NCBI GenBank assembly: GCA_903813345.2
Contig: CAIIXF020000008.1
Span: 25,344,822-25,408,821 of the forward strand
Source of the DNA: Owenia fusiformis
Lineage: Eukaryota > Annelida > Polychaeta > Sabellida > Oweniidae
DNA: 64,000 bases
Reading direction: 5' to 3'
The notes under the pieces were generated by a model. The model saw only the letters and a list, made by a program, of their open reading frames with translations, did not search any database and was not told where the DNA came from. The stretch's first letter is position 1; every line of letters starts with the position of its first letter. Below are positions 1 through 63,222 of this stretch, piece by piece. A program made the position numbers and the translations under genes.

Positions 1-960
1 TCGAAAGGTCAGAAAAGTTGATTTTTCAAATTGAGTCTTTGGATTCAAATTCAAGTCAGTCTAATTACAAAAAGCCTACTGAGGTAGACCCACTGAGCTC
101 TAAAACAGTAACATTTTCAAGGTCAAGGGTCACGGTTATCAAATTAGGTCAAAGGTCAAAATCTAGGTCAAATCTAAATTTTTTCAAGTTTCTCAAGTTT
201 GTCCTTATACTTCATTATTTCTTGCGATGAATTAAACTGAAACTACATTTAAGTATTTTCTACAAATTGTTCACTATATGTCAGCATTGAATTTTTACCA
301 TTTTTGAGATATTTGACGTCCAAAAATGGTCAAAAAAGGTAATTTTTCAACTTGCTTCAATCTGACCAATTTTTTTTTTAAAAGTCATCTACAAATTCCC
401 AGGAGTCCGAATCTGACCTCATATTTGACCTTTGACCTTTAGTTGACCTTCAATGACCTTCGAAAGTTAAGAAATGTTGATTTTTCAAATTGAGTCTTTG
501 GATTCAAATTTAGGTCAACCTGATTAAAAAAGACCTACTGAGGTCTAAAAGGGTAAAATTTTTCAAGGTCAAAGGTCAAGATCATGAAATTAGGTCACAA
601 ACTGTGCTTTCTAAGTTTCGCAAAGTTCGAGACTACAAACCAATATTTTTAACCTGAAGTAGAAATATACACATCCCTCTAAGGGTTCTACACATATAAG
701 CAATTGACTATCTAATAGAATTTTGTCCCAGTTTGAGATATAAGAGTTCAAAAATTGAAAAAAGGTCAATTTCGAAATTTTTCAAGGTCGAATTTAAACT
801 CGCTTCAAATTGACAAAATCTTTTTTTGAAAATCATCTACAAGTTCTCAAGAGTTCACATCTGACCTCAGATTTGATATTTGTCCTTTAGTTGACCTTCA
901 AATTGTCAAAAATGCCTAAGAGGGCCTCCGTGAGATTGCTTGCAATCTTCAAAAGTCTAG
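1..960 (+). mobile_element. Helitron-like repeat unit A (5' end beyond window)
   Basis: Non-coding repeat, cut by the left window edge. It ends with the inverted repeat GATTGCTTGCAATC (934-947), then CTAG at 957-960, then T. The same layout ends the next five units. The body consists of diverged copies of an internal block of about 450 bp with many AGGTCA half-sites, including the direct repeat AGGTCAAAGGTCA near 567. Hairpin plus CTAG followed by T is the classic Helitron 3' terminus; the 5' terminus is not visible. No helicase or Rep coding is present, so it would be non-autonomous. Confidence 0.55.
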
Positions 961-1552
961 TTATTATTCTTTATTATTATTATTAGACTCCAGATGTCAA
1001 TCTGGAGTCTATTGTTTTTGTCAGTATTCTTATTATTCTTTATTATTCTTTCTTATTATTCTTTCCCAGTTTTCTCGATAACCATAAGGCTTCAAATAAA
1101 GATCATTATTCAGTCAATTTATGTCCAGTATCTAGTTCCTCGGAAATTGGGTCAAATTTTTATCTAGGTCAAAGGTCAAGAACTAGGTCAAATCTTACAT
1201 TTTCAACATTCTGTCATTTATCTTCCTCGTTGTTTATCGTAACTCCTAAATCTTTTTTTCATCATGTAGCTTAGAAAAAGCCAAAGCAAAGATATGACAT
1301 TAGATTTTTGATTACGCTTACCGATTTTGAAATATGGCGTCCAGAAAGTAGGTCAAAATGAAAAGTTCTCCAAATTTAACATCTGAGTTATGAATTAAGG
1401 GTAGAATTTCGTCAGGAATCCGAATCTGCAAACCAAATTTCGACCCGACTTCCGGTTCGAAAGTTATGGCGTTTTGAAATTTCGAGAAAAATCGATCTGA
1501 TGATATCCTTATAGAAAGTCAAGAGTAGCGAAGAAAATATAGAAAAAATCAT

Positions 1553-2530
1553 CCATCCTTCCTTCCTATCCTGTCTGATCATATCCTTCCTATCTATCCT
1601 TCCTTCCTTCCTATCCTTTCCTTCCTATCCTATCCTTCCTTCCTATCCTATCCTTCCTTCCTATTCTATATCCTATCCTATATCCTATCCTATATCTATC
1701 CTATATCCTATCCTATATCCTATTGTATATCCTATCCAATCCTATCCTTCCTATCCTATCCTTCCTTCCTATCCTATACTATCCTATCGTTTCTTCCTAT
1801 TCTATCCTATCCTTCCTTCCTATTCTGGAAGGAAGGATATTCTATCCTATCCTTCCTTCCTATTCTGGAAGGAAGGATAGGATAGGATAGGAAGGAAGGA
1901 AGGATAGGATAAGAAGGATAGGAAAGAGGGATAGGACTGGACGACTTGGCTTATTCTGAACGACTCGGCTATATCCATCCCACCTATCCTATTCAATCCT
2001 ATCCTTCTTTCCTATCCTATCCTATCCTATCCTTCCTTCCTTCCTATCCCATCCTTCCTATTCTGTCCTATCTCATTCTTTCTTCGGATTCTATCATATC
2101 CTATTCTATCCTTCCTATCCTATCCTATACTATCTTATCCTTTCTTCATATTCTGTCCTATCCTTCCTATCCTATGAATTCATCCATCAATCCATCCATC
2201 CATCGGCTTATTCTGGATGACTCTGCTTATTCTGGATGACTCGGACTATTCTGGATGACTTGGCTATTTTGGATGACTCGACTATAATATCCATCCCACC
2301 TATCCTATCCAATCCTATCCTTCTTTCCTATCCTTCCTATCCTATCCTTCCTTCCTATCCTATCCTACCCTTCCTTTTCTGTCCTATCTTATTCTTTATT
2401 CGGATTCTATCGTATCCTATTCTATCCTTCATACCCTATACTATCCTATCCTTTCTTCCTATTCTATCCTATCCTTCCTTCCTATTCTGTCCTATCCTTC
2501 CTCCTATCAATCCATCCATTCATCCATCAG
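1553..2530. repeat. (TATCC)n pentanucleotide microsatellite, interrupted
   Basis: Degenerate tandem TATCC/TTCCT pentamers, mostly pyrimidine-rich on the plus strand. They are broken at about 1920-1975 and 2190-2290 by the minisatellite sequence. Between about 1829 and 1935 the strand polarity flips to TAGGA/AAGGA, so this section can fold back on the preceding TCCTA tract. Confidence 0.9.
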
Positions 2531-2665
2531 TCCAGCCATCCACCTACTTATTCTGGATGACTCGGCTTATGCGGGATGACTCAACTTATTCTGGATGACT
2601 TGGCTTATTCTGGATGACTCGGCTTATTCTGGATGACTCGGCTTATTCTGGATGACTCGGCTAAA
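2208..2665 (+). repeat. 19-bp minisatellite GATGACTCGGCTTATTCTG, two blocks
   Basis: Tandem copies of a 19-bp unit occur at about 2208-2280 and 2545-2665, on either side of the second microsatellite block. The same unit recurs near the end of unit C (about 4025-4110). It has no coding potential. Confidence 0.85.
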
Positions 2666-2718
2666 AAAGGTCTTAATCTGGAGTCTGAAATTGAACTTGT
2701 TCAATTTCCAAAGTCTAG

Positions 2719-4162
2719 TTATTCTTTATTATTCTTTCTTATTATTCTTTCCCAGTTTTCTCGATAACCATTAGGTTTCCAATAAAGATCATTATTTAGT
2801 CAATTTATGTTCAGTATCTAGTTCCTCGGAAATTGGGTCAAATTTTTATCTAGGTCAAAGGTCAAGAACTAGGTCAAATCCAGTACTTTGTCACTTTTTT
2901 CAATTTTCTCGGTCGTCCTTCAATATTTTCGATCCGGGTTTTTTTCATTGTGTTCCTTTAAAAAAAGTAGGAAACCTAGGGTCGATTTAGTTTTTTGATA
3001 TCTCAAACCGATTTCGAGATATCAGTGTCCGAAAACGAGGTCCAAAAAAAAGTTCTCCGAATCAAATGTCCAGGATATTAGTCTTATAGGAAATTTTCTC
3101 AGGATTCCGAATCTGAAAACGAAATTTGTATCTGACTTCCGGTTCGGAAGTTATGGCGTTTTGAAAACCCAAAAATCGCTAAATTTGGTGCCCATGTTAA
3201 GTCAATGGGAAAAAATATTTTTTTGAAGTGAAAAATACGGAATATAGACTGAGTTCAGCTTCATATAATCAAAGCCTTTAAAAGAAGGGGACCTCAAAAG
3301 CCATCTAGCTTCACAATTTGGACACCGAAATGCCTAGGTCAAAATCTAGGTCAAATTCATAGGTTTTCCTTATTTTTTCGATTCTGACACTACACTTTAA
3401 TTATATTCTTCGAAATTGTGTATACATGTAGCCAAGAATATGCTTATAGTGTTAGCCTTTTGCCGTCAGAAAGTATTTTGACCCACTTTTGAGATATGGT
3501 GTCCGAAAAGTAGGTCAAAATAAAAAGTTCTCCAAATTGAATATATGAGTTATGAATTAAGGGTAGAATTCTGTCAGGAATCCGAATCTGCAAATTAAAT
3601 GTCGATCCGACTTCTGGTTCGGAAGTTATGGCGTGTCCGAAAAGTAGGTCAAAATAAAAAAATCTCCAAATTTAACGTATGAGTTATGAATTAGGGGTAG
3701 AATTTTGTCAGGAATCCGAATCTGCAAACTAAATCTCGATCCGACTCCCGGGTTGGAAGTGATAGCGTTTTGAAATTTCGAGAAAAATCGATCTGATGGT
3801 ATCCTGATAGAAAGTCAAGAGTAGAGAAGAAAATATTGAAAAATTCATCCATCCTCCCTTTCTGATCCTATCCTATCCTTCCTTCGTATCCTTTCCTTCC
3901 TATCCTTCCTATCCTCTCCTATCATATCCTTTCTTCCTATTCTGTTCTATCCTATCCTTCTTTCTTATTCTATCCTATCGTTCCTTCCCATTCTAACCTA
4001 TCCTACCTTCCTGTTTTATCCATCCATCTTATTCCGGATGACTCAGCTTATTCTGGATGACTCGGCTTATTCTGGATGACTCGGCTTATTTTAGATGACT
4101 GGGCTTAAAAAAGTCTGGATCTGGAGTCTGAAATTGAACTTCGTTCAATTTCCCAAGTCTAG
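2719..4162 (+). mobile_element. Helitron-like repeat unit C
   Basis: Closely related to unit B. It has the same left sequence (TTTCCCAGTTTTCTCGATAA), microsatellite (about 3845-4015) and 19-bp minisatellite. The same 3' end is present: hairpin 4130-4152 (arms GAAATTGAAC), CTAG at 4159-4162, then T. It differs from B in lacking the 26-bp left hairpin. Internal segments around 3490-3800 are themselves partly duplicated (FRAME: GTCCGAAAAGTAGGTCAAAAT occurs at two places). No coding. Confidence 0.55.
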
Positions 4163-5991
4163 TTTATTCTTCCCCCCTCTTTTTCTCCTACTTCCAACTA
4201 CCTTTCAACTAGGTGCTACATAGTCCTACTAGGGACCTGGGCTGAACTTGGCAGGAAAGGAATTTTTATCTAGGTCAAAGTCAAAGGTCAAAATCTAGGT
4301 CAAATCTAAGTTTTTTTCAAGTTTCTCAAATCCTGACACTACACTTCAATATTTTTGGTTGAATTTTTGCATACAGATAGATATTAGTATTCTATTAGTC
4401 TTAGCCTTTTGCCGTCTAGAGAAATTTTGCCTAGATTTTGAGATATTGAAGGTCAAAAAAAGGTCAAAAAAGGTCTTTTTTCAACTTGCTTCAAATTGAC
4501 CAATTTTTTTTTAAAACTCACCTACAAGTTCTCAGGATTCCAAATCTGACCTTACTTTTGACCTTTGACCTTTGGTTGACCTTCAGTGACCTCCGAAAGG
4601 TCCAAAAAGTTGATTTTTCAAATCAATTTTCTGGATTCAAATTTAGGTATATTTATTCACAAAAGACCTTCTGAGGTCTAAAAAAGTAAAATTTGCAAGG
4701 TCAAAGGTCAAGGTCATCAAACGAAATCACAAACTGTGTTTTCTAAGTTTCTCAAAATTGGAGACTACAAATCAATATTTTTTCATGAAAGTCAGGATAT
4801 ATATTCCTCTAAAGGTTCTACACATATTAGCAATTGACTATTTATTAAAATTTTGCTCCAGTTTTGAGATATTAGAACTCAAAAACTGAAAAAAGGTCAA
4901 ATTTCGAAATTTTTCAAGGTCAAATTTCAACTTGCTCTAAATTGACCAAACTTTTTTTTAAAAAGCATCTACAAGATCTCAGGAACTCAAATCTGACCTT
5001 AGTTTTGACCTATGACCTTTAGTTGACCTTCAGTGACCTTCGAAAGGTCAAAAAAATTGATTTTTCAAATTTATTTTCTGGATTAAAATTTAGGTTTATT
5101 CAATCAGAAAAGATATACTGAGGTCTAAAAAAGTAAAATTTTCAAGGTCAAAGGTCAAGGTCATCAAACAAGATCACAAACTGTGTTTTCTAAGTTTCTC
5201 AAAGTTTGTGACTACAAATCAATATTTTTGAATTAAAGTCAGCATATATATTCCTCTAAAGGTTTTACACATATTAACAATTGATTATCTATCAAAATTC
5301 TGCACCAGTTTTGAGATTTTGGACCTCAAAAACTGAAAAAGGTCTAATGTTGAAATTTTTCAAGGTCAAATTTCACATTGCTTCAAATTGACCAAACTTT
5401 TTTTTAAAACTCATCTACAAGTTCTCAGGATTCCAAATCTAACCTTACTTTGGCCTTTGACCTTTGGTTGACCTTCAGTGACCTCCGAAAGGTCAAAAAA
5501 GTTGATTTTTCAAATCGATTTTCTGGATTCAAATTTAGGTATATTTATTCACAAAAGACCTTCTGAGGTCTAAAAAAGTAAAATTTGCAAGGTCAAAGGT
5601 CAAGGTCATCAAACGAAATCACAAACTGTGTTTTCTAAGTTTCTCAAAATTGGAGACTACAAATCAATATTTTTAAATGAAAGTCGAATATATATTCCCC
5701 TTCTAAAGGTTCTACACATATTAGCAATTGATTATCTATCAAAATTTGGCTCCAGTTTTGAGATATTATAGCTCAAAAACTGAAAAAAGGTCAAATTTCG
5801 GAATTTTTCAAGGTCAAATTTCAACTTGCATTAATTCGACCAAACCTTTTTTAAAAATCATCTACAAGTTGTCTGGAGTTCATATATGACCTTGTATTAG
5901 AGATTTGACCTTTGGCTGGCCTTTGAATGTTCAGAAACGAATATAGGGCCTCCGTAAGATTGCTTGCAATCTTAGATCGTTAGATCTCTAG
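4163..5991 (+). mobile_element. Helitron-like repeat unit D
   Basis: First member of a second sub-family (D, E, F) with a different left end (TTATTCTTCC then CTCCTACTTCCAACTACC). The 3' end has hairpin AAGATTGCTTGCAATCTT at 5956-5973 and CTAG at 5988-5991. Inside are about four copies of a block of roughly 450 bp (starts near 4475, 4927, 5375 and 5820, marked by CAACTTGCTNNAAATTGACC). This is one block more than in E and F, which explains its greater length. Every block carries AGGTCA-type direct repeats. Confidence 0.55.
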
Positions 5992-7369
5992 TTCTTTATT
6001 ATTTATTCTTCCTCCCTCTTTTTCTCCTACTTCCAACTACCTTTCAACTAGGTACTACATGGTCCTACTAGGGACCTGGGCTGAACTTGGTGGGAAAGGA
6101 ATTTTTATCTAGGTCAAGGTCAAAGGTCAAAATCTAGGTCAAATCTAAGTTTTTTTCAAGTTTCTCAAATCCTGACACTACACTTAAATATTTTTGGCTG
6201 AATTTTTGCACACAGATAGATATTAGTATTCTATTAGTCTTAGCCTTTTGCCGTCTAGAGAAATTTTGCCTAGATTTTGAGATATTGAAGGTCAAAAAAA
6301 GGTCAAAAAAGGTCTTTTTTCAACTTGCTTCAAATTGACCAAATTTTTTTTAAAACTCATCTACAAGTTCTCAGGATTCCAAATCTGACCTTACTTTTGA
6401 CCTTTGACCTTTGGTTGACCTTCAGTGACCCCCGAAAGGTCAAAAAAGTTGATTTTTCAAATCGATTTTCTGGATTCAAATTTAGGTATATTTATTCACA
6501 AAAGATCTTCTGAGGTCTAAAAAAGTAAAATTTGCAAGGTCAAAGGTCAAGGTCATCAAACGAAATCACAAACTGTGTTTTCTAAGTTTCTCAAAATTGG
6601 AGACTACAAATCAATTTTTTTACTGAAAGTCAGAATATATATTCCTCTAAAGGTTCTACACATATTAGCAATTGACTATTTATTAAAATTTTGCTCCAGT
6701 TTTGAGATATTAGAACTCAAAAACTGAAAAAAGGTCAAATTTCAAAATTTTTCAAGGTCAAATTTCAACTTGCTCTAAATTGACCAAACTTTTTTTTAAA
6801 AATGCATCTACAAGATCTCAGGAACTCAAATCTGACCTTAGTTTTGAACTATGACCTTTAGTTGACCTTCAGTGACCTTCGAAATGTCAAAAAAGTTAAT
6901 TTTTCAAATTGATTTTCTGGATTCAAATTTAGGTTTCTTCAATCAGAAAAGATATACTGAGGTCTAAAAAAGTAAAACCTGTAAGGTCAAAGGTCAAGGT
7001 CATCAAACAAGATCACAAACTGTGTTTTCTAAGTTTCTCAAAGTTTGTGACTACAAATCAATATTTTTGAATTTAAGTCAGGATATATATTCCTCTAAAG
7101 GTTTTACACATAATAACAATTGATTATCTATTAAAATTCTGCACCAGTTGTGAGATATTGGACCTCAAAAACTGAAAAAGGTCTAATGTTGAAATTTTTC
7201 AAGGTCAAATTTCACATTGCTTCAAATTGACCAAACTTTTTTTTAAAAATCATCTACAAGATGCCTGGAGTTCATATATGTCCTTGTATTTAAGATTTGA
7301 CCTTTGGCTGACCTTTAAATGTTCAAAAAAGCCTACGGGGCCTCCGTAAGATTGCTTGCAATCTTCTAG
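5992..7369 (+). mobile_element. Helitron-like repeat unit E
   Basis: 1378 bp, near-identical in length and order to unit F. The hairpin AAGATTGCTTGCAATCTT (7348-7365) directly abuts CTAG (7366-7369). It has three internal blocks of about 450 bp. The only open frames are short and recur as homologous 62-codon frames in unit D, which reflects repeat homology and not a gene. Confidence 0.55.
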
Positions 7370-8748
7370 TTATTATTTATTCTTCCTAAACCTTTTACTC
7401 CTACTTCCAACTACCTTTCAACTATCTACTATATGCACCTACTAGATACCTTGGCTGAACTTGGCGGGAAAGGAATTTTTATCTAGGTCAAGGTCAAAGG
7501 TCAAAATCAAGGTCAAATCTAAGTTTTTTTCAAGTTTCTTAAATCCTGACACTACACTTCAATATTTTTGGCTGAATTTTTGCATACAGATAGATATTAG
7601 TATTCTATTAGTCTTAGCCTTTTGCCGTCTAGAGAAATTTTGCCTAGATTTTGAGATATTGAAGGTCAAAAAAGGTCAAAAAAGGCCTTTTTTGAACTTG
7701 CTTCAAATTGACCAAATTTTTTTTTCAAACTCATCTACAAGTTGTCAGGATTCTAAATCTGACCTTACTTTTGACCTTTGACCTTTGGTTGACCTTCAGT
7801 GACCTCCTAAAGGTCAAAAAAGTTGATTTTTCAAATCGATTTTCTGGATTCAAATTTAGGTATATTTATTCACAAAAGACCTACTGAGGTCTAAAAAAGT
7901 AAAATTTGCAAGGTCAAAGGTCAAGGTCATCAAAAGAAATCACAAACTGTGTTTTCTAAGTTTCTCAAAATTGGAGACTACAAATCAATTTTTTTTACTG
8001 AAAGTCAGAATATATATTCCTCTAAAGGTTCTACACATATTAGCAATTGACTATTTATTAAAATTTTGCTCCAGTTTTGAGATATTAGAACTCAAAAACT
8101 GAAAAAAGGTCAAATTGCGAAATTTTTCAAGGTCAAATTTCAACTTGCTCTAAATTGACCAAACTTTTTTTTAAAAAGCATCTACAAGATCTCAGGAACT
8201 CAAATCTGACCTTAGTTTTGACCTATGACCTTTAGTTGACCTTCAGTGACTTTCGAAAGGTCAAAAAAGTTTATTTTTCAAATTGATTTTCTTGATTCAA
8301 ATTTAGATTTATTCAATCAGAAAAGATATACTGAGGTCTAAAAAAGTAAAATTTTCAAGGTCAAAGGTCAAGGTCATCAAACAAGATCACAAACTGTGTT
8401 TTCTAAGTTTCTCAAAGTTTGTGACTACAAATCAATATTTTTGAATTAAAGTCAGGATATATATTCCTCTAAAGGTTTTACACATATTAACATTTGATTA
8501 TTTATTAAAATTCTGCACCAGTTTTGAGATATTGGACCTCAAAAACTGAAAAAGGTCTAATGTTATAATTTTTCAAGGTCAAATTTCACATTGCTTTAAA
8601 CTGACCAAACTTTTTTTTTAAATCATCTACAAGATGCCTGGAGTTCATATATGACCTTGTATTTAAGATTTGACCTTTGGCTGACCTTTAAATGTTCAAA
8701 AAAGCCTACGGGGCCTCCGTAAGATTGCTTGCAATCTTATACATCTAG
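7370..8748 (+). mobile_element. Helitron-like repeat unit F (last of array)
   Basis: 1379 bp. The hairpin AAGATTGCTTGCAATCTT is at 8721-8738 and CTAG at 8745-8748, after which the sequence becomes single-copy intron. Three internal blocks of about 450 bp carry AGGTCAAAGGTCAAGGTCA clusters. Its end lies only about 50 bp from the 5' splice site of phosphatase exon 6, so the whole array is intronic to that gene and in opposite orientation. Confidence 0.55.
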
Positions 8749-8798
8749 TTTATGATAGAAACTTTCCAAGTTCATGAACATTTTAACGTTTAATTTAC

Positions 8799-8913
8799 CT
8801 TTAAGTCTTCTTCCAGCCATTTGTACTGGTTTACAATCTGCATCCAGCCATACTGTACATAATAGTAGACCTCTGTAGAGAATGATATGATGTGAACTGG
8901 ACCTATATCAAAA
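8799..8913 (-). CDS. Phosphatase exon 6 (last one in window)
   Basis: Acceptor CATTTTTAG, donor GTAAAT. Encodes FDIGPVHIISFSTEVYYYVQ and ends with QYKWLEEDLK in phase 0. The following exon (expected to carry the PWII..GHRPMYCS region) is not found down to position 1, where only repeats occur. Confidence 0.93.
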
Positions 8914-11900
8914 CTAAAAATGATATCAACTATTAGTTCATTGTAATGATTTAGTTATAGTACATGTAAAGCAGAGTGGATTGATTTTTGGATATGTGTG
9001 CACATGACAGACAGCATTCTGCAAAAAAGTATAAATGTACAGGTTTTCAAGCAGCAACAAAATGATAGGTGCAAAATCTGACGATGGGGCAACCGAGCTT
9101 GAAGAGAAACAGCTTAGAAATACAATGCTTACTGAATAAAGTAATAAAAAGATACCTAAGATAGTTGCCATGTATGCCATCAATTTTCTCAGTGTAACAA
9201 TATTTAGCAATTCAATGTACAACATTGCACTTTGACCAGATCATTGTTTTAAGTTTCACAATAATGCAGCATAAAATGTCACTTTACCTGAAGAATAATC
9301 CGTCTCCATCTCCACCTGGCATTGTGAACCTTTTGCGATAGTTGGAGAAATTACTTGAATCACAATGAAAATGATTAGGTTTAAATGTTTTTCTATGCAT
9401 AGAATTCTTACTGACAGAAAAATACATACTAAGTTACAAATGTTTGAACTTCAAGACTGAAAAGTACCTTGTTGTACTTACTAAGCATTCTCGTGATTGC
9501 CAACACAGGTCATGTAAGGTACATAGGCAGCTATAGGCTCAATCTGTCTCATAAACTCATCCCCTGTCCTTGCATTATCCTACAACAAACATAGACAAGG
9601 AATAGATTAGAGATCAGCCTCATAGTTCACACTTCACAACCAGAGTCAAATGATACTCTATGGACTAGAAAAGAGCATAAATAACTTCACAGTCCCAACA
9701 CAGCTAAATAAATACATAATAATATATAAAAATCATCAAAAGACTATTTGGTATATGATACACCAATTAAGCAAACCTTCCCTGAACTTGGCCTATACAA
9801 TACATGTAATTAAATTAATAGAAGAACTGTGGTATGAAGAACAAAAGAGAGCAAATATAGTTTATATTCCATTGTGTTTAGTGTGTGGTCAATCCCAAAA
9901 ATTATTGGTCAAAAGAGAACTGTTTTTTATCCAATCACCAGTTCATAAAACAAAATTGATGTTTTGATCAATAAAGCCTATGTAAACCGAATGCTACTGG
10001 GACTGGTCAAAAGTGTTCAGATTGGCAGGTGTTCACATTTCAGTTGTTTTTTAAATGAAAATATGGAAGATTTAAAAAATGTGTTCAAATTGGAAAGGTA
10101 TTCGGATATTATTCAGGATTTCCTGAACTGAGTTGGCATTATTTTTACAGCAAGTACATGTAAAGCACAGATGAGACAATACACCACTTGGTGACATACA
10201 CTGCTTGATCATATTCACCTCAAGTATTAGAGAGAGAATGGACATTTTAAACCTTTAGCATCTCTTATAGATAAGGTACAGCAGAAAAATTGATTTTATT
10301 TTATTCATGATATGCATTCACCACTCTTCTCAATTAGATGCAATTTTTAACTGGGTGCAATGTTTTAATTAGCTTCAATGTTGAGAGAGCATTTTCAAAT
10401 AGGGGTTATAAAAAGTACAATACTCACAGTGTCCATGTTGTAGGCAAAGTCACCCACATGTAAAATTGCATCAATGTTTCCATCCTGGGCTTCCTGCTGC
10501 AACCAACTTACAGACTTGGCATTTGTATTGCCCATATCTCCATATAAGGCAAATCGTGGGGACCAGTTTGTTCCACTCTGCATGGCAGTAAATGAATACA
10601 TGTCACTCCACCCAAGTTCACTGCCACACCTATATTCTGTAATGTACAGGTATTAAAAATGGAGGTCACAAAGCATGGACAACTGTAAATGCAATGAATA
10701 TGTTGGTATAATTAATGACATAAGGATTATGTTAAGGGGGTGGGGTGGATATGGGGTGTTTCCTGTGGTAAGATATCATATTTCATCAGGGAATATAACA
10801 TCATATGCCAAACCAAGCACAACATAGCTTATCTATCCAATGACTTGTGATTTTTAAACTATAAAACATTCAGTCTACTTATATTATTATATAGATAAAT
10901 TGAGATTTTCAAATGAGCTACACATATTAACTAACATTCCTGTTTGTTGTATTATGAATCAACAAATCTGCTATAGTTTTAAACACTGTTTCTTCAATGA
11001 ATGTAAACTTGTCTTCCTGGAATATTGAAGTCGGAAATGTTCAGCAGGAGATATATGATATGGATATTTATGTGCCCAGCTTCAGCAAGATATTATTTCC
11101 AAATTCTGCTATGTATGTGAAACCTCACTAGTCAAAGGATAAAGTGCATATTCAACTAGTATTACTGTATTTGTTACAAATGGATAAGAAAATAATAGTC
11201 TTACTGTATGACATCCCTGGAGTTAAATGAAAGAGCGTCACTCTATGAATATAGAATAATCTTGCTTCTGAACCTCCATCCTTGAAGAGCTCCTGTTTAC
11301 CAATAATAGCCTGTGTTGGCTTTGCAATGCCAAATTGTACAATACTGGAGTTGGTAGCAGATTGGGTCACCCAGGTCACTACCATTTCTGTAGGATTACC
11401 TATAAATAAACACACAAGGATCATCTTGACTAATCCAAAGTACTCTACATTCTGGCTTCTTTCCAAAGAGAGACAATTGTGGTGTGGGTGGGAATGGTAA
11501 AGTCCACTATGACTGAACTGTTTCAACTCCATATACTTGCAAATACAAATAAAAAATGTCAAAACACCAAATATCAAGGCTCTGAACTTCATGCTAGTCT
11601 AACTTTATTCTATCAGTTATCCCCAGGGCTGTCAACTTGGGACCATCTAACATGAGTGACTTCCAAATTTTGAACACCTTCCTTCAAACTTTGGACAGCT
11701 TCAGTGAACACTGGTAGATTTTGGACACCTCAAATTTTTCCAGCTTGCTTACACTCGCTCTTCAACGAGCGGGGAGGGGGTGGGTGGTAGGTGTTAATAT
11801 TTTCGAAACAAATGCGTGATATATACACATATTTTGAATTTAGTACTTTTTTAACTTCTTAATTTTGGATAGATTTGATGTGTGAGGGTAGATCGAAACT

Positions 11901-14900
11901 ATCAAAAATATGGAGTCATCATGCCGTTCCGCCATTTTGAAACCTGTCACGGGTAAATAAGGTTAACTGATGTTGCATTCTGGGAGTCAATCCTCCTTGG
12001 ATCACAAACATGGCGATTCATGAAAACATTCGTTTGATTTGGTAGGAATTTATCCATCATTTGCAGGTATGAAACTTTGGATTCATTTATTGTGCTACTA
12101 AAGTGAACGGGAATTATTTTTCTACCACTTGGGACAGCTTGAGACACGAAACTTAGAATTTAGCTCATTGTGACAACTTATGATGGTTGAGGTTTATTAA
12201 TGTTTCCGACTTTAGGCTAATAGAAAGGTTAAGTTTCACGTTGATATTAATCTAGACTAGAGTCCATTTCACTGCTTCATTTCGTCAGTAGAACGGCAAA
12301 AATAAGAAATTGGGAGACCATTGTGCAATAATATATGTGAAACTATATTCCTATTGTACATGGATGACATTTGTATATCTTGGATTGCTTCTAGTTTGGC
12401 TAAAAAATCTGACTCTAGAGTCCATTTCACTGCTTCATTTCGTCAGTAGAACGGCAAATATAAGAAATTGGGAGACTATTGTGCAATAATATATGGAAAA
12501 GTATATTTATAATGTACATGAATGACATTTGTATATTTCAGATTTTTTAGTTTTTTGTGCAATAAGCCTGTGCCGTCTTGTAATTTGAAGAATTTCAGCC
12601 ATGTTAATCTTATTGAAAATAACATGGCAGAGAAACATCCAAATATAAGAGGCCACACACTTTATAAGCCAAACTAGAAGCAATCCAAGATATACAAATG
12701 TCATTCATGTACATTATGAATATACTTTTCCATATATTATTGCACAATGGTGCCAATCACCCAAATACTCTAACCCAACCAGAGCAGAGATTATATCACA
12801 ATCAAGCTACCATGAACCAGCAACTCAAACCTCAAAACATCGGAGCAGTACACCAAAACCAGGTACATTCAATACCAGTGAGCAGCCAACCCACAACAAC
12901 AATAGAAGGGAAGACAACCCTAGACACCCACCAGTGTCAACGTATGAAGAGCCAATAAACCATCAACATTGACTAGACAACAAAACTGTACATAGTGTAG
13001 ATAATGTAAATAATGTAAATGACCCGCCTGTAAATAGGATAAAAAATACAAGACAAGAAAATGAAATCTCTAGTAAACCTAGTCTTAAAGTATTGTACAC
13101 TAATTGTGACTCACTAATGAACAAGAAAAATGAGCTCAAATTAGTAGTAGACACAGAAGAGCCGGATGTAATAGCTCTCACAGAAATTAAACCAAAGAAT
13201 TTAAGAGACCCCTTGATGGAATGTGAAATCAAAATCGATTCATATGAATGCTACCACAATATAACTACTGAAAATACAAGAGGCACTGCCATCTATGTAA
13301 AATCAAATCTACAATGTTCCCAAATCCAAGTACAAGACAAAAGCAACGAAGCAATATGGATAAGCATTGGATCGGATAGGAACAAAGCCACAATAGGGTG
13401 TCTATATAGAAGCCCAAATAGTACACAGGACAACTCCACCAATCTACTAGGTCAGATAAGTACAATATGCAGTCAGAATCCAAGATACCTACTGATATTA
13501 GGTGATTTTAACCTACCAACAATTGACTGGGAACTAAAAATGATAAAACCAGGAACGAACCATGACACCGCCCAATGCCTCATTGATGTAATAGATGACA
13601 ACTACCTAATACAACATCAACTGACTCCAACAAGATTCAGAGATGGACAAGTACCAAGCCTACTCGACCTTATAATCACAAACGAAGAAGACACAATATA
13701 CAACAACAAAACAGCCTCTCCTATTGGAAAGAGTGATCATTGCATACTGACCATGGAGATGAACTGCGGGGCAAAATACATTCCACCCACCAAACCAATA
13801 CAGCTCATAGACAAAGCCAACTTTACAGCAATGAAAGAAGATCTCGATATAGACTGGAAACTTCTCTTCCAAGAGAAAAATACAGAGGAATGCTGGAACA
13901 TCTTCAAAAATAAATTAGAAGAAACATCTGAAAAAAACATACCTACAATTATCCCAAACAAAAGAAAATCACCCTGGATGAACAGGGACTGTCTTAAGTC
14001 AATTAGAACAAAAAGGAGAGCCTTCAATAAAATGAAACGTAAATCCAAATATGGAACACTAACAGAGCATGACAAAATGACATACAAAAAAGCAAGCAAA
14101 CAAGCAAAATCTGAAATAAGGAAATCAATACGGAAGTATGAGAAGAAGATAGCCAAAGCTGCCAAATCTAACCCAAAGCTCTTCTGGAAATATGCAAATC
14201 ATCAGACAAAATCAAGGAATGGAATACCAGACTTAGATAAAGGTGATGGCACTAAGACAGATTCAGATGAGCAGAAGGCTAATATACTAAATGATTTTTT
14301 CTCTGGAGTATTTACCAATGAGGACGTAGAGAACATACCATCAATGGACTTCATATATATTGGATCCTACATAGATGAATGGACAGTGTCAGAAGAAGAT
14401 GTAAAACTACAACTAGAAACAACTAAAACCAACAAATCACCAGGGCCTGATAACATAAGCGGACGAATCCTGAAGGAGTTAGCTGATGTATTAACCCAAC
14501 CCATCTACCTCCTCTTCACCAAGTCAGTCGACGAAGGTTACTTGCATATGGACTGGAGAAGAGCCAATATCACACCCATATTCAAGAAAGGCACCAGTTC
14601 CTCCCCTACAAACTACCGCCCAGTTAGCCTTACCAGCACGGTATGCAAAATTCTTGAGAGCATAATACGCCCACAACTACTCCAACATCTACAGAGCAAC
14701 AAGCTACTAACAACTACACAACATGGATTCCTTCCCAATAGATCCTGCTCAACTAATCTACTAGCCATGCTTGAGAACTGGTCTAAGATCATCGACACAG
14801 GGGGCGCTGTAGACGCAATATATATGGATTACGCGAAAGCGTTTGATTCCGTCCCCCATCAGCGCCTGCTCTCCAAGCTTAAAACATTAGGAATAAGAGG

Positions 14901-16494
14901 CAAAGCTCTTAAGTGGATGTCCTCCTTCGTAACAGAAAGACAACAGAGGGTAGTTCTGAATGGTAAAGCAGCCCCGTGGACCCACGTAGGCTCTGGTATA
15001 GCTCAGGGAAGTGTGCTCGGGCCGCTTCTCTATGTCCTCTACGTAAACGACATGCCAGACACAATAAAACATAGCAATATCACTCTATTTGCCGACGACA
15101 CCAAACTATACAGGATAGTGAAGGATCCAGCAGATAGAAATATGCTCCAACACGACCTTGACTCAATCCAGGACTGGGCCAAAAAGTGGAACCTAAAGTT
15201 CAATGCACAAAAATGTTCAGTTTTACACATAGGCAGAACCAACAAGGCCATGAGTTACAATATGAAAGACATAAACACAGGAGAAGAAATCCCCCTAAAC
15301 AACTCTACCTGTGAAAGAGACTTGGGGGTCTTTATAGACTCTAACCTGAATTTCAACCAACACATCAGTAAAATAGTGAACAAAGCCAACCAAGCTGTAG
15401 GGATGATCAAGAGGACATACGTATACTGGGACCTTGAATCTTTTAAGCTTCTCTTCAATGGACTTATAAGACCAAAATTAGAATTTGCAAACTCAGTCTG
15501 GAATCCATTCACCAAGAAAAACATAGAACTTATTGAAAATGTGCAAAGAAGAGCTACACGTATTATCCCATCCCTGAGAGAACTATCGTATCCAGAAAGG
15601 CTCAGAACTTTAGATCTAACAACCCTAGCCTATAGGAGACTTAGAGGCGACATAATAGAAACTTTCAAGTATATGAACAACTTATATGATGTGAATAGCC
15701 TAGACATATTCCCAATCCAACAGAATAGAAACACAGGACCAACACTAAGAAGAGCAAACACACAGATGCTCAGAAAATTCCACTGCTCAACGACAAACAG
15801 ACAAAACACCTTCAGCCAGCGAGTGATAAGACAATGGAATGCACTCCCTGAATTCGTAATTAGGGCTGATAATACCAACACTTTCAAAAACAGGCTAGAC
15901 AAACACTGGATGGATCATCCAATGAAATTAGACCACAACATTGATTATGGCTATGTACATAGGTAGTTGGGGAAACTTGACTTTTTAACTTTTTATGCAA
16001 CAATCTAAGGACAATGAGGTCCTTGCAATGATCGATTAACAGGCAAGCATGCCTATTAATCGTAATTCACTTATAATCTTATAATCTTATAATCCCAATT
16101 TCTTATTTTTGCCGTTCTACTGACGAACTGAAGCAGTGAAATGGACTCTACATATTTTGGCCTGTAGTGTATGCTAAGAGTGTATCACAATTTAAAATAC
16201 AAATCTAACTGTTGAAGATGATTAAATAGAACAATGGTTGCATGTGAACGTGACTTTTTCAATTTTTGCCTTGGCAATTTTTCAAATCAGATAAGTTATG
16301 TCATTGTCAGAGAATGATCTTGTGATCCACTTTCAGAATCTGATGATAAAAGTGTGTAGATCATACAAAAACTAGAGAAAGTAAGGTTTACCTGCATATG
16401 ATAGATGAACTTGCTCTGGTTGAGGAAAAAATGGTTGTCCAATGACTACATTCGTCACAAAACTCAAAACAACGAAGAGAAAAATAATTTCCAT
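8799..16494 (-). CDS. Purple acid phosphatase (ACP7/PAPL type), N-terminal six exons, 3' end outside window
   Basis: Secreted or lysosomal-type binuclear metallophosphatase hydrolysing phosphate monoesters; the in vivo substrate of this animal subfamily is unsettled. CDS exons: 16494-16392, 11399-11205, 10636-10428, 9579-9482, 9353-9288, 8913-8799. All junctions are GT-AG and phase-consistent, giving 262 residues. Residues 1-19 form a signal peptide. PEQVHLSYAG opens the fibronectin-like N-terminal domain, and YIHRVTL and YRCGS are family signatures. Metal motifs seen: GDMG (132-135), GDFAY (161-165) and GNHE (196-199). Motifs IV and V (the later histidines) must lie on exons beyond position 1. 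The human family member has about 440 residues, so roughly 60% is here. The first intron holds the LINE/foldback composite, and the intron after exon 6 holds the Helitron-like array. No stop or frameshift was seen in the exons. Confidence 0.93.
8914..9287 (-). other. Phosphatase intron 5
   Basis: Single-copy AT-rich intron. A 95-codon open frame on the minus strand crosses it but has no recognisable domain. Nothing else seen. Confidence 0.8.
9288..9353 (-). CDS. Phosphatase exon 5
   Basis: A 66-nt exon between acceptor GTGATTCAAG and donor GTAAAG. Encodes YNFSNYRKRFTMPGGDGDGLFF, the conserved NFSNY...RF.MPG segment of the family. Splicing from exon 4 (phase 2) and into exon 6 (phase 2) restores the frame exactly. 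Confidence 0.93.
9482..9579 (-). CDS. Phosphatase exon 4 (metal motif III)
   Basis: Acceptor TGTTGTAG, donor GTAAGT. Encodes DNARTGDEFMRQIEPIAAYV and PYMTCVGNHEN. GNHE is the conserved metal/phosphate-binding Asn-His motif. Ends in phase 2. Confidence 0.95.
9580..10427 (-). other. Phosphatase intron 3 with MITE remnant
   Basis: AT-rich intron. The stretch at about 9985-10045, read on the minus strand, matches the inner part of the mariner-like MITE at 19007-19165 (GTGAACACCTGC, AACACTTTTG.CCAGTCC, then ATTCGG), so it is a decayed copy of that family. A 105-codon plus-strand frame (9650-9967) shows no domain. Confidence 0.6.
10428..10636 (-). CDS. Phosphatase exon 3 (metal motifs I and II)
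   Basis: Acceptor CATTACAG, donor GTGAGT. Encodes YKYRCGSELGWSDMYSF and then the start of the catalytic domain. This includes GDMG (motif I, metal-binding Asp133) and HVGDFAYNMD (motif II, Asp162 and Tyr165; this Tyr gives the purple charge-transfer colour in the family). Ends in phase 0. Confidence 0.95.
10637..11204 (-). other. Phosphatase intron 2
   Basis: Single-copy AT-rich sequence. It holds a GGGGGTGGGGTGG G-rich patch near 10737. No coding, RNA gene or clear repeat is visible. Confidence 0.8.
11205..11399 (-). CDS. Phosphatase exon 2
   Basis: Acceptor TTTATTTATAG, donor GTAAGA; phase 1 at both ends. It encodes residues 35-99 (NPTEMVVTWVTQ ... ARLFYIHRVTLFHLTPGMSY), the fibronectin-III-like N-terminal domain of purple acid phosphatases. 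In-frame reading past either boundary gives intron sequence. Confidence 0.92.
11400..12258 (-). other. Phosphatase intron 1, exon 2-proximal part
   Basis: Intronic. Around 11620-11760 there are repeated TTTGGACA(G/C)CTTC phrases (TTTTGAACACC, TTTGGACAGC, TTTGGACACC), suggesting a decayed repeat. No coding region recognised; a 66-codon minus-strand frame (11947-12147) has no known domain. Confidence 0.6.
12785..12958 (+). pseudogene. Possible ORF1 C-terminal remnant of the LINE
   Basis: A short Gln/Asn/Thr/Pro-rich frame, open from 12698. The part inside the LINE runs from roughly 12785 to the stop at 12956-12958. It is followed after 11 nt by the TGA that opens the endonuclease-RT frame in a different phase. 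Composition and position fit the disordered end of a LINE ORF1, but no zinc knuckle, esterase or coiled coil is visible. Could be chance. Confidence 0.3.
12973..15966 (+). CDS. LINE ORF2: APE-type endonuclease and reverse transcriptase
   Basis: Continuous frame after TGA at 12970, ending TAG at 15964-15966; about 957 residues counted from the TTG codon at 13093 (LKVLYTNCDSLMNKK is the natural domain start). With that numbering the APE endonuclease spans about 1-225: TEIKPKN (catalytic Glu), YRSPNS, GDFN (about 137-140) and SDH (about 214-216). The RT spans about 440-720: KSPGPDNISG, PIFKKG..NYRPVSLTS, QHGFLPNRS, YMDYAKAFDSVPH (about 577), GIAQGSVLGPLLY, FADDTKLY (about 665). A C-terminal domain has NGLIRPKLEFANSVWNP and WNALPE. 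All catalytic residues are present with no stop or frameshift. No ATG precedes the endonuclease motif, so the start is unresolved: reinitiation, a frameshift from ORF1, or loss of the start by truncation. Confidence 0.93.
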   Translation, partial: LDNKTVHSVDNVNNVNDPPVNRIKNTRQENEISSKPSLKVLYTNCDSLMNKKNELKLVVDTEEPDVIALTEIKPKNLRDPLMECEIKIDSYECYHNITTENTRGTAIYVKSNLQCSQIQVQDKSNEAIWISIGSDRNKATIGCLYRSPNSTQDNSTNLLGQISTICSQNPRYLLILGDFNLPTIDWELKMIKPGTNHDTAQCLIDVIDDNYLIQHQLTPTRFRDGQVPSLLDLIITNEEDTIYNNKTASPIGKSDHCILTMEMNCGAKYIPPTKPIQLIDKANFTAMKEDLDIDWKLLFQEKNTEECWNIFKNKLEETSEKNIPTIIPNKRKSPWMNRDCLKSIRTKRRAFNKMKRKSKYGTLTEHDKMTYKKASKQAKSEIRKSIRKYEKKIAKAAKSNPKLFWKYANHQTKSRNGIPDLDKGDGTKTDSDEQKANILNDFFSGVFTNEDVENIPSMDFIYIGSYIDEWTVSEEDVKLQLETTKTNKSPGPDNISGRILKELADVLTQPIYLLFTKSVDEGYLHMDWRRANITPIFKKGTSSSPTNYRPVSLTSTVCKILESIIRPQLLQHLQSNKLLTTTQHGFLPNRSCSTNLLAMLENWSKIIDTGGAVDAIYMDYAKAFDSVPHQRLLSKLKTLGIRGKALKWMSSFVTERQQRVVLNGKAAPWTHVGSGIAQGSVLGPLLYVLYVNDMPDTIKHSNITLFADDTKLYRIVKDPADRNMLQHDLDSIQDWAKKWNLKFNAQKCSVLHIGRTNKAMSYNMKDINTGEEIPLNNSTCERDLGVFIDSNLNFNQHISKIVNKANQAVGMIKRTYVYWDLESFKLLFNGLIRPKLEFANSVWNPFTKKNIELIENVQRRATRIIPSLRELSYPERLRTLDLTTLAYRRLRGDIIETFKYMNNLYDVNSLDIFPIQQNRNTGPTLRRANTQMLRKFHCSTTNRQNTFSQRVIRQWNALPEFVIRADNTNTFKNRLDKHWMDHPMKLDHNIDYGYVHR
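16392..16494 (-). CDS. Phosphatase exon 1 (signal peptide)
   Basis: Starts at ATG 16494 with A at -3 and G at +4 (good Kozak context). It encodes MEIIFLFVVLSFVTNVVIG followed by QPFFPQPEQVHLSYA and ends in phase 1 at donor GTAAAC. Signal cleavage is probably after the VIG at residues 17-19. I see no convincing promoter motif upstream (16.5-16.9 kb). Confidence 0.9.
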
Positions 16495-17005: not shown

Positions 17006-17515
17006 CTCATTCAATGGATTAGTACATCCTTTGATACATTCTGTTGAATGGTGTTCAAGTCAACAAAGTGATTCATAGTATTTTATTCAATGGACTCGTA
17101 CATCCTTTGATACATTCTGTTGAATGGGGTGTGACATTCAATTCAACAAAGTGATTCATAGTATTTTATTCAATGGACTGGTACATCCTTTGATACATTC
17201 TGTTGAATGGGGTGTGACATTCAAGTCAACAAAGTGATTCATAGTATTTTATTCAATGGACTGGTACATCCTTTGATACATTCTGTTGAATGGGGTGTGA
17301 CATTCAAGTCAACAACGTGATTCATAGTATTTCATTCAATGGACTCGTACATACTTTGATACATTCTGTTGAATGGGGTGTGACATTCAAGTCAACAAAG
17401 TGATTCATAGTATTTTATTCAATGGACTGGTACATCCTTTAATACATTCTGTTGAATGGGTTGTGACATTCAAGTCAACAAAGTGATTCATAGTATTTCA
17501 TTCAATAGACTGGTA

Positions 17516-17604
17516 CAACAACACTTCCCCTATTGTATAAAGCACTTGTAAGGCCACACCTAGAGTATGCCAATAGCGCATGGGGACCAGGATATGCCCT
17601 TTGA
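17516..17604 (+). pseudogene. LINE reverse-transcriptase fragment inside satellite (copy 1)
   Basis: Translates as LYKALVRPHLEYANSAW followed by GPGY. This is the conserved region just after the RT palm in CR1/Jockey-type LINE ORF2 proteins. It compares with FNGLIRPKLEFANSVWNP in the LINE at 13-16 kb but is a different, more typical sequence. The fragment replaces ATCC in the satellite unit after GGTACA and the satellite resumes at CCTTTGATACATT. Confidence 0.85.
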
Positions 17605-17760
17605 TACATTCTGTTGAATGGGGTGTGACATTCAAGTCAACAAAGTGATTCATAGTATTTTATTCAATGGACTGGTACATCATTTGATACATTCTGTTGA
17701 ATGGGGTGTGACATTCAAGTCAACAAAGTGATTCATAGTATTTCATTCAATAGACTGGTA

Positions 17761-17849
17761 CAACAACACTTCCCCTATTGTATAAAGCACTTGTAAGGCC
17801 ACACCTAGAGTATGCCAATAGCGCATGGGGACCAGGATATGCCCTTTGA
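17761..17849 (+). pseudogene. LINE reverse-transcriptase fragment inside satellite (copy 2)
   Basis: Same fragment as at 17516-17604, same junctions, 245 bp (three unit lengths) further on. It spread with the satellite by unequal exchange after one capture event and was not inserted twice. Confidence 0.85.
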
Positions 17850-18500
17850 TACATTCTGTTGAATGGGGTGTGACATTCAAGTCAACAAAGTGATTCATAG
17901 TATTTTATTCAATGGACTGGTACATCATTTGATACATTCTGTTGAATGGGGTGTGACATTCAAGTCAACAAAGTGATTCATAGTATTTCATTCAATAGAC
18001 TGGTACATCATTTGATACATTCTGTTGAATGGGGTGTGACATTCAAGTCATCAAAGTGATTCATAGTATTTCATTCAATAGACTGGTACATCCTTTAATA
18101 CATTCTGTTGAATGGGTTGTGACATTCAAGGCAACAAAGTGATTCATAGTATTTCATTCAATAGACTGGTACAGTCCTTTAATACATTCTGTTGAATGGG
18201 ATGTGACATTCAAGTCAACAAAGTGATTCATAGTATTTCATTCAATGGACTGGTACATCACTTGATACATTCTGTTGAATGGAGCGTGACATTTAGGTCA
18301 ACAAAGTGATTCATAGTATTTCATTCAATAGACTGGTACATCCTTTAATACATTCTGTTGAATGGGTTGTGACATTCAAGTCAACAAAGTGATTCATAGT
18401 ATTTCATTCAATGGACTGGTACATCATTTGATACATTCTGTTGAATGGGGCGTGATATTTACGTCAACAAAGTGATTCATAGTATTTCATTCAATGTAAA

Positions 18501-19165: not shown

Positions 19166-20694
19166 CATTTTTTAGATTTACTCGAGGATGTTTGATGCTG
19201 CATTGTCCTATCATAAAATATAACATAATAGATTTGATTTAATTTATTATTACAAAAGCATAAGCTTTATTTGAGAACTTCCATATTTTACATTCATCCA
19301 TTTCCATACATTACAACCAGAGCCATCTATGGCAAGTAAACCCCGGAAAGTAAACCTTATTATAACACATAAGCAATATCATACAATGGGTATAGTTATA
19401 GAATGCTCAATATTCCCAAGTCTAATAACAAGTACAATATTTATAATAACCTGAGCATTCCATTACCATATACACTTTATGACAGAACATACAGGACTCA
19501 CTCAAAACCATAATGGTTTACACATAGTTACATATGGACATGCCCTTTCCATTCTAAATAATGTTGAATGGTACTAACATAAAAATAAATACTACAAACT
19601 GTATATTGGTTCCCATGGGTACTGGGTTCCCTAAAGTATTTCCAATTCACTCCAAAAAATTATAAAAAATGACAGCATTTCCCAAATCATTTTAAAACAG
19701 GCCAAACAAATATTAAGTCAAATGCAAACAAAAAACAGATTTTGTTGTTTTGATGTCACATCACATGTTCATGAATGTGTCAGAATCGGCATACAATGAA
19801 AACATGATATTCAAACTGCTTTCGCAACATGGCACCTTCCATTGAGACTCATCAAATAGTCTTTACATCATTATTCATACACATGAAAAAAGATTTCATG
19901 TTTTTCTCAATAGATTTTTACTGCATGTTGCCTTTGAACATAGGGTTCAATGTTGTGGCAAAATTGAGGCTAAGATGACATCTCTTTCCTGTTAGTATCA
20001 ATAGCTGAACCAGGTCTCACTGTTTTTTACCTCCAGTGAATAAAATGCCAATTTTCTTATACTCATTTAATGCCTTTTTCCAGAATTCTATATCAACTGT
20101 CTGATCTCCTGGTATTTTCATGTAAATGAAGATTTCAAACATCATGCTTGTTCTTGCATCCTCCATTTTTACCCTTTTAGAATATATGTTCAAAGAAACA
20201 TGAGAAGTTTGACAAGTTTCTCACAGGGGCAAAAAAACTTCAATGTATTTTTTACATTGAGCCAATATGCAATGGTAATCAAAACAAGGTGTGTGAAAAT
20301 TGGAACAGACAAGTTCATATTCCTGTTTAAGATTCTCATTTTCAAAAACAGAAGTCTAAATGATTTTATCTGTTCAAGATGCTGATGATTTGAAAAGAAT
20401 ATGCAATTTGAAGCTTTTGAATAAACTAATCAAATCAAAATACTCTACAGTACACATATTTGAATTTGACAGTCTCCAGACCAAAAACTTGGAAACCATT
20501 CTTAATCAATTTGCCTTTTCTGAAATTCTGAATTCAGAAATGTGAGTAGATAAGGGATAAGAGTCAGGATCTATTGTCAGTTTTGTGTAATAAAAGAAGA
20601 ATCCCAAATTCTGGTACCAGTTCAAGGGCAACCAGAACAACGGCAACGCCAAAGCGTAGCGAATCCCATCGAACATTTTTCAAAAGGGAATATT
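19166..20694. other. Intergenic DNA
   Basis: AT-rich. Several 60-codon frames occur near 20200-20545 without a recognisable domain. The start of the repeat at 20.7 kb is preceded by GCGAATCCCATCGAAC (20659-20674), which shares ATCCCATCGAAC, inverted, with the right end at 21590-21606. Confidence 0.6.
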
Positions 20695-21607
20695 CTACCA
20701 AAAGTGTCATTAGACAGTGTGCCATGCTTATAATATTCACATACCAAATATGAACAAAATCACTCCACTTCTTTTCGAGTTATAGTAAAATACGTTAAAA
20801 TGGCGGCCATTTTGAAAAATGGCCGCCTTCTACCAAAAGTGTCATTAGACAGTGTGCCATGCTTATACGTATTCACGTACCAAATATGAACAAAATCGCT
20901 CCACTACTTTTCGAGTTATAGTAAAATAAGTTAAAATGGCAGCCATTTTTCAAAATGTCCGCCATTTTTCAAAATGGCCGCCTTCTACCAAAAGTGTCAT
21001 TAGACAGTGTGCCATGCTTACAGTATTCACATACCAAATATGAACAAAATCGCTCCACTACTTTTCGAGTTATAGTAAAATACGTTAAAATGGCGGCCAT
21101 TTTGAAAAATGACCGCCCTCTACCAAAAGTGTCATTAGACATTGTGCCATGCTTATACGTATTCACATACCAAATATGAACAAAATCGCTCCACTACTTT
21201 TCGAGTTTTAGTAAAATAAGTTAAAATGGCGGCCATTTTTCAAAATGGCTGCCATGTGCTTTTTTAATATCTACATTTCTAGCTTTATTAATGTCCTATA
21301 TAATTCTTTTTACATTTAAAACATATTGCTATTACAGTTTTACATATTGCACCTAAATTACTGTAAAGTCGGCACTAAAATGGCCGCCATTTTTAAATGA
21401 GCGGACATTTTGAAAATCGGCTTTCGAGCAGAACTTCTACCCCCATAGGGTATATGTGTACAAAATATGAATAAAATCGGGCCAACGGTATTTGAGTTAT
21501 TGCCCGGACGGACGGACGGACGTACGTACGTACGGACGGACGGACGTACGTACGGACGGACGGACGGAGGCGTTCCCTATATCCCTCCGAACTTCGTTCG
21601 ATGGGAT
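20659..21607. mobile_element. Repeat element with GGCGGCCATTTT array and GGAC/GTAC microsatellite end
   Basis: Contains four tandem units beginning CTACCAAAAGTGTCATTAGAC at about 20695, 20829, 20985 and 21119 (spacing about 135, 155, 135). Each carries AAAATGGCGGCCATTTT-type sequence. The right end is a GGAC/GTAC microsatellite (21505-21568) followed by a near-perfect hairpin TATCCC..CGAAC-TTC-GTTCG..GGGATA. The inverted ATCCCATCGAAC at the left suggests these are the element's ends. No transposase is visible. Confidence 0.65.
21505..21568. repeat. GGAC/GTAC tetranucleotide microsatellite
   Basis: Alternating blocks of GGAC and GTAC repeats. It is strongly GC-rich against its surroundings. 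Confidence 0.95.
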
Positions 21608-63200: not shown

Positions 63201-63222
63201 AGAATCTAAAACAGTCAAATTG

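Follow-up and report, generated by a model that had tools for sequence, protein, structure and literature searches.

The window, a stretch of 64,000 nucleotides (nt) from contig C8 of the polychaete Owenia fusiformis, begins with an array of six Helitron-like units, A to F, which stand head to tail and each close with a hairpin, CTAG and then TT (Table 1). The array spans approximately C8:25343533-25353569; its left start lies about 1.3 kb outside the window, and unit A is truncated by the window edge. Units A, D, E and F carry the 3′ hairpin GATTGCTTGCAATC, and the CTAG of B and C is preceded by the hairpin GAAATTGAAC-TT(C)-GTTCAATTTC, giving the order A, B C, D E F along the array. An earlier note on this DNA had described the six hairpin-CTAG-T ends and the two hairpin types in this order, and both descriptions are confirmed here. 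Two further CTAGTT motifs in the first 9,000 bases, at 1132 and 2818, lie inside units. Unit B alone has its own 5′ palindrome in the window; its centre (1551-2662) consists of long TCCTA-type tracts and a 19-bp repeat. Apart from a low-complexity frame at 2236-2598, the units hold no open frame of at least 110 amino acids, and Rfam at its gathering threshold gives no match in the window. Here, we compare these units with their relatives in the genome (498 Mb, 525 contigs) and ask how such arrays are built.

Table 1. Units of the array and their landmarks, in window coordinates
Feature	Position	Strand	Remarks
Unit A, 3′ part	1..960	+	Hairpin 934-947, CTAG 957-960; remainder and damaged 5′ end left of the window
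TTATT/TTATTCTTT microsatellite between A and B	961..982	+	Landing-pad remnant, probably unit C's if the array is nested
Unit B, second family	983..2718	+	Palindromic 5′ end TTAGACTCCAGATGTCAATCTGGAGTCTA at 983-1011
5′ microsatellite of unit B	1027..1065	+	Putative landing pad
3′ end of unit B	2675..2718	+	Subterminal inverted repeat AATCTGGAGTCT, hairpin 2687-2708, CTAG 2715-2718
Unit C, family of B	2719..4162	+	Starts within microsatellite, without own 5′ palindrome; CTAG 4159-4162
Unit D	4163..5991	+	Without 5′ palindrome; 99.9% identical to a C10 unit; hairpin 5958-5971, CTAG 5988-5991
Unit E	5992..7369	+	Without 5′ palindrome; start in microsatellite; hairpin 7350-7363, CTAG 7366-7369
Unit F	7370..8748	+	Hairpin 8723-8736, CTAG 8745-8748; outermost, hence presumably oldest if the array is nested

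Element anatomy and insertion site

Complete copies have a structure that is absent from most units of the window array. The 5′ end is a palindrome (TTAGGAGGCCCC..GGGGGGCCTCCTA in family 1, TTAGACTCCAGA..TCTGGAGTCTA in family 2), which in family 1 is followed by a short stretch, a TTATT/TTATTCTTT microsatellite and the body; the bodies of D to F contain long internal repeats (447 bp). Half of the 5′ palindrome is repeated ahead of the 3′ hairpin, and the element ends with CTAG. The 5′ subterminal repeat and its inverted copy before the hairpin read AGGAGGCCCC versus GGGGCCTCC and AGACTCCAGAT versus ATCTGGAGTCT, and the spacer between hairpin and CTAG takes recurring forms. In L027 (5954-5988) and L032 (3769-3803) the 3′ hairpin is doubled, 21 bp apart, before CTAG, possibly a step in the evolution of the 3′ end.

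These elements are abundant and clustered. The pattern hairpin-TT-N(0-14)-CTAGTT has 500 matches in the genome and none in a reversed control; 63 of the first 100 matches listed belong to clusters with neighbours less than 3 kb away, and among these 100 the neighbour pairs at that distance lie on the same strand in 43 of 44 cases. Exact 5′ palindromes number 417 for family 1 and 2,648 for family 2. Solo copies, which the earlier note had proposed to look for, are found with both ends at six of 14 single-match loci (L002, L005, L007, L008, L009, L011).

All 25 family-1 loci have A directly before the element and TT directly after it, with a left flank of TTA in 22 and TAA in three; these left-flank counts use a corrected list, as the fuzzy front pattern also catches TTATTAGG and shifts left flanks by 3 nt. 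On the right side TT is followed by A in 29 of 38 loci. The joined flanks of L002 gave 40 scored genomic matches, of which 39 extend across all 120 nt without a difference in length, and in the three empty sites that were read letter by letter nothing is duplicated and nothing is lost. This empty-site test concerns one element, L002; for L007, compared with the window at 20.7-21.2 kb, no exact empty site was found. Insertion is thus between A and T, with TTA^TTAT as the preferred target (^ marks the insertion point), although letters shared by the termini leave this point ambiguous by up to 3 nt. A transposon that duplicates its target is ruled out by unequal left and right 3-mers at several loci (TAA/TTT in L020, for example) and by the exact L002 empty sites. 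The Helitron-like assignment, which the earlier note had drawn from termini, is now supported beyond them by A^TT in 25 of 25 loci and by exact empty sites, and neither of the findings it had named as fatal, copies confined to local arrays or solo copies flanked by target duplications, was encountered.

The target TTA^TTAT is a word repeated in the element's own microsatellite: in six copies counted, TTATTAT occurs three to six times on the plus strand and never on the minus strand. In L016 and in L017 a unit is interrupted by an inverted element; both elements occupy the same TTA^TTAT site, which is read on the bottom strand of the unit. We first read these two loci as one composite that had moved, a reading weakened by the different heads of the inserted elements, which make two independent insertions at one site at least as likely.

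Stacked fronts, bracket order and rival readings

How could an element that carries its own target produce a head-to-tail array? A full-length resident would offer a run of target (TTATT/TTATTCTTT) just behind its palindromic 5′ end, and a newcomer landing in this microsatellite would split the resident: the resident's 5′ palindrome would become a short stub to the left of the newcomer, and the resident's frontless body would come after the newcomer's CTAG. Because the target word lies on one microsatellite strand only, members would share their orientation, and repeated rounds would give stub-stub-stub-body-body-body, which looks like a head-to-tail array. We consider such nested self-insertion of non-autonomous elements of rolling-circle type to be the origin of the window array with a probability of roughly 0.8, and nesting is well supported as the main origin of these arrays. 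Repeated insertion, as the earlier note had suggested, is thereby upheld, but in place of the proposed CTAG/T junction the resident's 5′ microsatellite is the most plausible landing point, which makes the units nested.

The genome-wide arrangement of fronts and bodies corresponds to this scheme. Units that directly follow another unit often start within the microsatellite and have no palindrome, and palindromes without a body, that is, severed 5′ ends, pile up at the left edge of arrays. In family 1, 119 of the 417 exact palindromes stand directly behind another one at a spacing of 15-45 nt, with none in a reversed control; the first 99 distinct family-2 palindromes listed, out of 2,648, include 47 adjacent stacked pairs, with up to six fronts per run, where about 0.01 would be expected. 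Written as brackets, with fronts as openings and 3′ ends as closings, 8 of 19 arrays are perfectly balanced (L016, L022, L023, L025, L026, L027, L036, L053), as in ((())) and (((()))). One L016 front, belonging to the inverted inner element, was removed by hand for this count. At L055, read separately and also balanced, a family-1 element surrounds three family-2 elements, and the four closings, one of which has mutated to TTAG, are correctly ordered. When fronts and bodies are paired last in, first out, their types match in 13 of 21 pairs, against a shuffle mean of 4.27, and none of 20,000 shuffles reaches 13; pairs that are still joined served as the reference, which a 22nd pair lacked. In the CAATTTTGTAG/TTCCTCCCTC subfamily, that of unit E and the one whose copies are most alike (~99% identical), the two halves of split microsatellites are complementary (r = -0.96, P = 0.002, n = 7), with sums of 29-36 nt next to a mean of 28 nt for unsplit microsatellites (n = 21).

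The arrays behind these numbers are a non-random sample. The first loci were the best matches to unit E, and later ones were pattern clusters on C1 and C2 and then mostly stacked fronts. The 19 bracketed arrays are those judged to reach unique DNA at their left edge; the other loci were left out of the bracket count, many of them because an end lies beyond the sequence taken. Of five loci chosen late, L053 is among the 19, L055 is the two-family case above, L051 and L054 have a surplus of fronts, and the third body of L052 runs off the stretch.

Several observations weigh against nesting as a complete account. Among the 19 arrays, two have one surplus opening (L018, L042), two run off the right end of the sequence taken (L033, L048), and seven have too few openings (L020, L028, L038, L040, L043, L045 and the window, where three fronts, or two by a stricter pattern, face six bodies). 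Outside the 19, L051 has five fronts and two recognised closings, and L054 (C12:32492700-32498900) has three stacked fronts and one recognised 3′ end. Eight of the 21 stub and body pairs mismatch, and the classes of stubs and heads were defined after the data had been viewed. The correlation between microsatellite halves is absent in the other subfamilies (r = -0.01, n = 14) and weak over all 21 pairs (r = -0.28, P = 0.11). Ten of 88 units in multi-unit loci have their best relative within their own locus, mainly L048, L018 and L038, where 2.35 would be expected at random. At L048 (C2:10678600-10688599, approximately 789-6850) three complete units, 100% identical, follow one another with a period of 2,023 bp. 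Finally, an autonomous element with these ends was not found in the parts of the genome examined (see below). The excess of same-locus relatives and the front-rich loci have lowered our confidence in nesting somewhat.

Might the front-rich loci have another origin? Extra 5′ ends could have arisen in composites that then moved as units, from the leftmost front to the first 3′ end, a model described with cases for Fusarium Helitrons (PMC5148889). It suits L018, L042, L051 and L054, the last of which has the form known from Fusarium, several fronts and a single end. However, composites predict many fronts with one body, whereas the counts of fronts and bodies are equal in the eight balanced arrays, and the combinations of stubs vary among loci. 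We regard composites as an improbable source of the arrays.

Somewhat less improbable, though still unlikely, is rolling-circle read-through, in which failure to stop at the 3′ end deposits several units together. Read-through has been invoked for the tandem Helitrons of bat, silkworm and plants (PMC4067079, PMC5876387), and the three identical complete units of L048 would suit it; front-poor loci such as L028 or L040 could moreover be composites that set out from an internal 5′ terminus and continued beyond several CTAG ends. A concatemer, however, predicts near-identical units in the order front-body-front-body, whereas in many arrays the fronts are stacked and the bodies belong to different subfamilies, and 78 of the 88 units have their best relative outside their own locus. 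The best relative is the next unit in three of the 88, one each in L048 and L038 and window unit B, whose family has only two units in the set. Neighbours that are near-identical and each have their own 5′ end, the definition of a rolling-circle tandem array, are found in L048 alone, and this triplet is a true tandem duplication or a rolling-circle concatemer inside a nested array. Identities are from global alignments with gaps ignored; summed BLAST scores were dropped, as the internal repeats of about 450 bp inflate them. The comparison set held no other family-2 units, so that window units B and C fall outside the relatedness test.

A third reading attributes the bodies and stubs to local multiplication, by unequal exchange or by slippage in the microsatellites. 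The stubs form a short tandem repeat that is liable to gain and loss, the deficits of L020, L028 and L045 involve like stubs, the extra stubs of L018 and L042 resemble their neighbours, and the excess of same-locus relatives fits some local copying. Slippage, however, yields neither arrays of mixed subfamilies nor a last-in-first-out order of types nor the two-family nesting of L055. It is thus very improbable as the origin of the arrays and the least convincing of these readings, but unequal exchange or slippage probably edits arrays after their formation. Some local duplication in the arrays is real. Alongside nested insertion, later gain or loss of fronts and occasional tandem duplication also shape the arrays, as read-through or composite transposition perhaps do.

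The window array itself can be read as nesting followed by loss. E and F are nearly equal in length, which the earlier note had noted correctly and taken to favour duplication; equal lengths are, however, common among family members elsewhere, and the identity between E and F, 96.4%, is lower than that between E and a copy on C1 (99.3%) or between F and a copy on C2 (98.4%). Local tandem duplication of the pair is ruled out, since each is closer to a copy on another chromosome. For A the closest unit is on C10 (90.9%), as it is for D. At the left edge of the array an F-type front is followed by a second front with an E-type start, which breaks off after TATCAAT and is directly joined to the body of A; the nearest relative of A, in L025, has a different front and about 160 more bases before the sequence of A resumes. 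One deletion, from the front of E into the body of A, would account for the missing fronts of D, C and A and would leave those of F and E in nested order. Under nesting, F would be the first arrival, followed by E (into F), D (into E) and C (into D); the microsatellite of C would house A as well as B, which retains its own front.

Classification, a possible landing pad and wider meaning

By structure, these elements are non-autonomous and HINE-like, with ends of the proto-Helentron type (5′ TT, 3′ CTAG, insertion at A^T). They share with the Helitron superfamily the A^T insertion (25 of 25 loci), the lack of a target-site duplication (L002) and a 3′ hairpin followed by CTRR, here CTAG in all six window units. 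The 5′ TC of canonical Helitrons (Helitron1) is not found, as the elements start with TTAGG if insertion is read as A^T. The palindromic 5′ subterminal repeat with its inverted copy before the 3′ hairpin is that of HINEs and Helentrons, but insertion is at A^TT in 25 of 25 loci and not within TT, and we therefore do not class the elements as HINEs. With no frame of 110 amino acids or more except the low-complexity one, the units do not encode the Rep-helicase protein of proto-Helentrons and would be non-autonomous derivatives of these, presumably moving by rolling-circle chemistry with a partner enzyme.

Which element could supply that enzyme? The genome contains 58 Helitron_like_N matches, 42 of them in open frames of at least 1,400 codons. 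A frame in L050 (C6:36035460-36045459) has Rep, PIF1 helicase and C-terminal endonuclease domains, the combination described for Helentrons (PMC4067079). This 10-kb stretch stops short of the element's ends and has no CTAGTT on either strand; a 154-bp tandem repeat follows the frame and reaches the end of the stretch (5355-10000). The list of family-1 fronts is complete for C1, C2 and C3 up to 21.5 Mb; in this part of the genome none of ten Rep matches lies within 10 kb of such a front, the nearest being 14.3 kb away. A RepHel copy sharing the last 30 bp, for which the earlier note had suggested searching, was likewise not found in a limited search.

Similar elements are known from other organisms. 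HINE/DINE-1 elements, the non-autonomous Helentrons (oyster Cg_HINE, PMC7492417; HINEs of mites and flies, PMC4067079), likewise have a palindromic 5′ subterminal repeat that recurs before the 3′ hairpin, a short microsatellite near the 5′ end, long central repeats (447 bp in the elements described here), a T-rich target and no target duplication. In contrast to them, the Owenia elements end with CTAG, are read as A^TT insertions rather than insertions within TT, and land in each other's microsatellite throughout the genome. Proto-Helentron-Pi of Phytophthora (PMC4067079) has the same 5′ TT, 3′ CTAG and A^T insertion without duplication; it is autonomous, whereas the Owenia elements have no long frame and possess a palindromic front and a microsatellite. 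The FoHeli Helitron2 elements of Fusarium (PMC5148889) also insert into themselves near the 5′ end and show several 5′ ends before one 3′ end; a few cases are described there, whereas Owenia has more than 100 stacks, many arrays in which the order of types matches, and elements that carry a copy of their own target. The tandem arrays of bats, silkworm and plants mentioned above share the head-to-tail units and have been ascribed to termination bypass or rolling-circle replication, whereas many Owenia arrays are better read as nested insertions. In the open-access literature, judged by titles and the beginnings of abstracts, we found no description of genome-wide nesting in an element's own microsatellite.

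Is the microsatellite a mere accident of composition? TTATTAT sites in family-1 elements make up about 0.5% of such sites, extrapolated from 37 sites in 55 kb of the window and from six elements, while 28.5% of family-1 fronts stand directly behind another family-1 front, a rough comparison that is inflated by composites moved whole. Target preference alone seems too weak to account for this difference. Tentatively, and at slightly less than even odds, palindrome and microsatellite might form a dedicated self-landing pad, by which the front of a resident draws in further copies and host genes are spared, with the array as a record of insertions in balanced brackets. The resident front may attract copies as an opened hairpin or while bound by transposase.

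Other repeats are found in the rest of the window. A 957-amino-acid frame at 13093-15966 on the plus strand has endonuclease and reverse transcriptase domains and belongs to a retrotransposon of the non-long-terminal-repeat type. An 83-bp satellite (17.5 copies) lies at 17054-18496, a 136/290-bp repeat with GGCCGCCATTTT motifs, a dispersed relative of which flanks the L007 element, at 20693-21255, and a 40-bp minisatellite (17.5 copies) at 63196-63888.

In conclusion, head-to-tail Helitron arrays had been read as products of rolling-circle replication or termination bypass, and for many arrays in Owenia a better explanation is that elements inserted in order into a target which they themselves carry. 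Tandem arrays alone are therefore no proof of read-through. Nested insertion is also a way in which dispersed elements could turn into satellite-like arrays. Since the order of brackets tells the relative order of insertion, and leftover front ends retain a partial record of it, such arrays may provide a dating tool.

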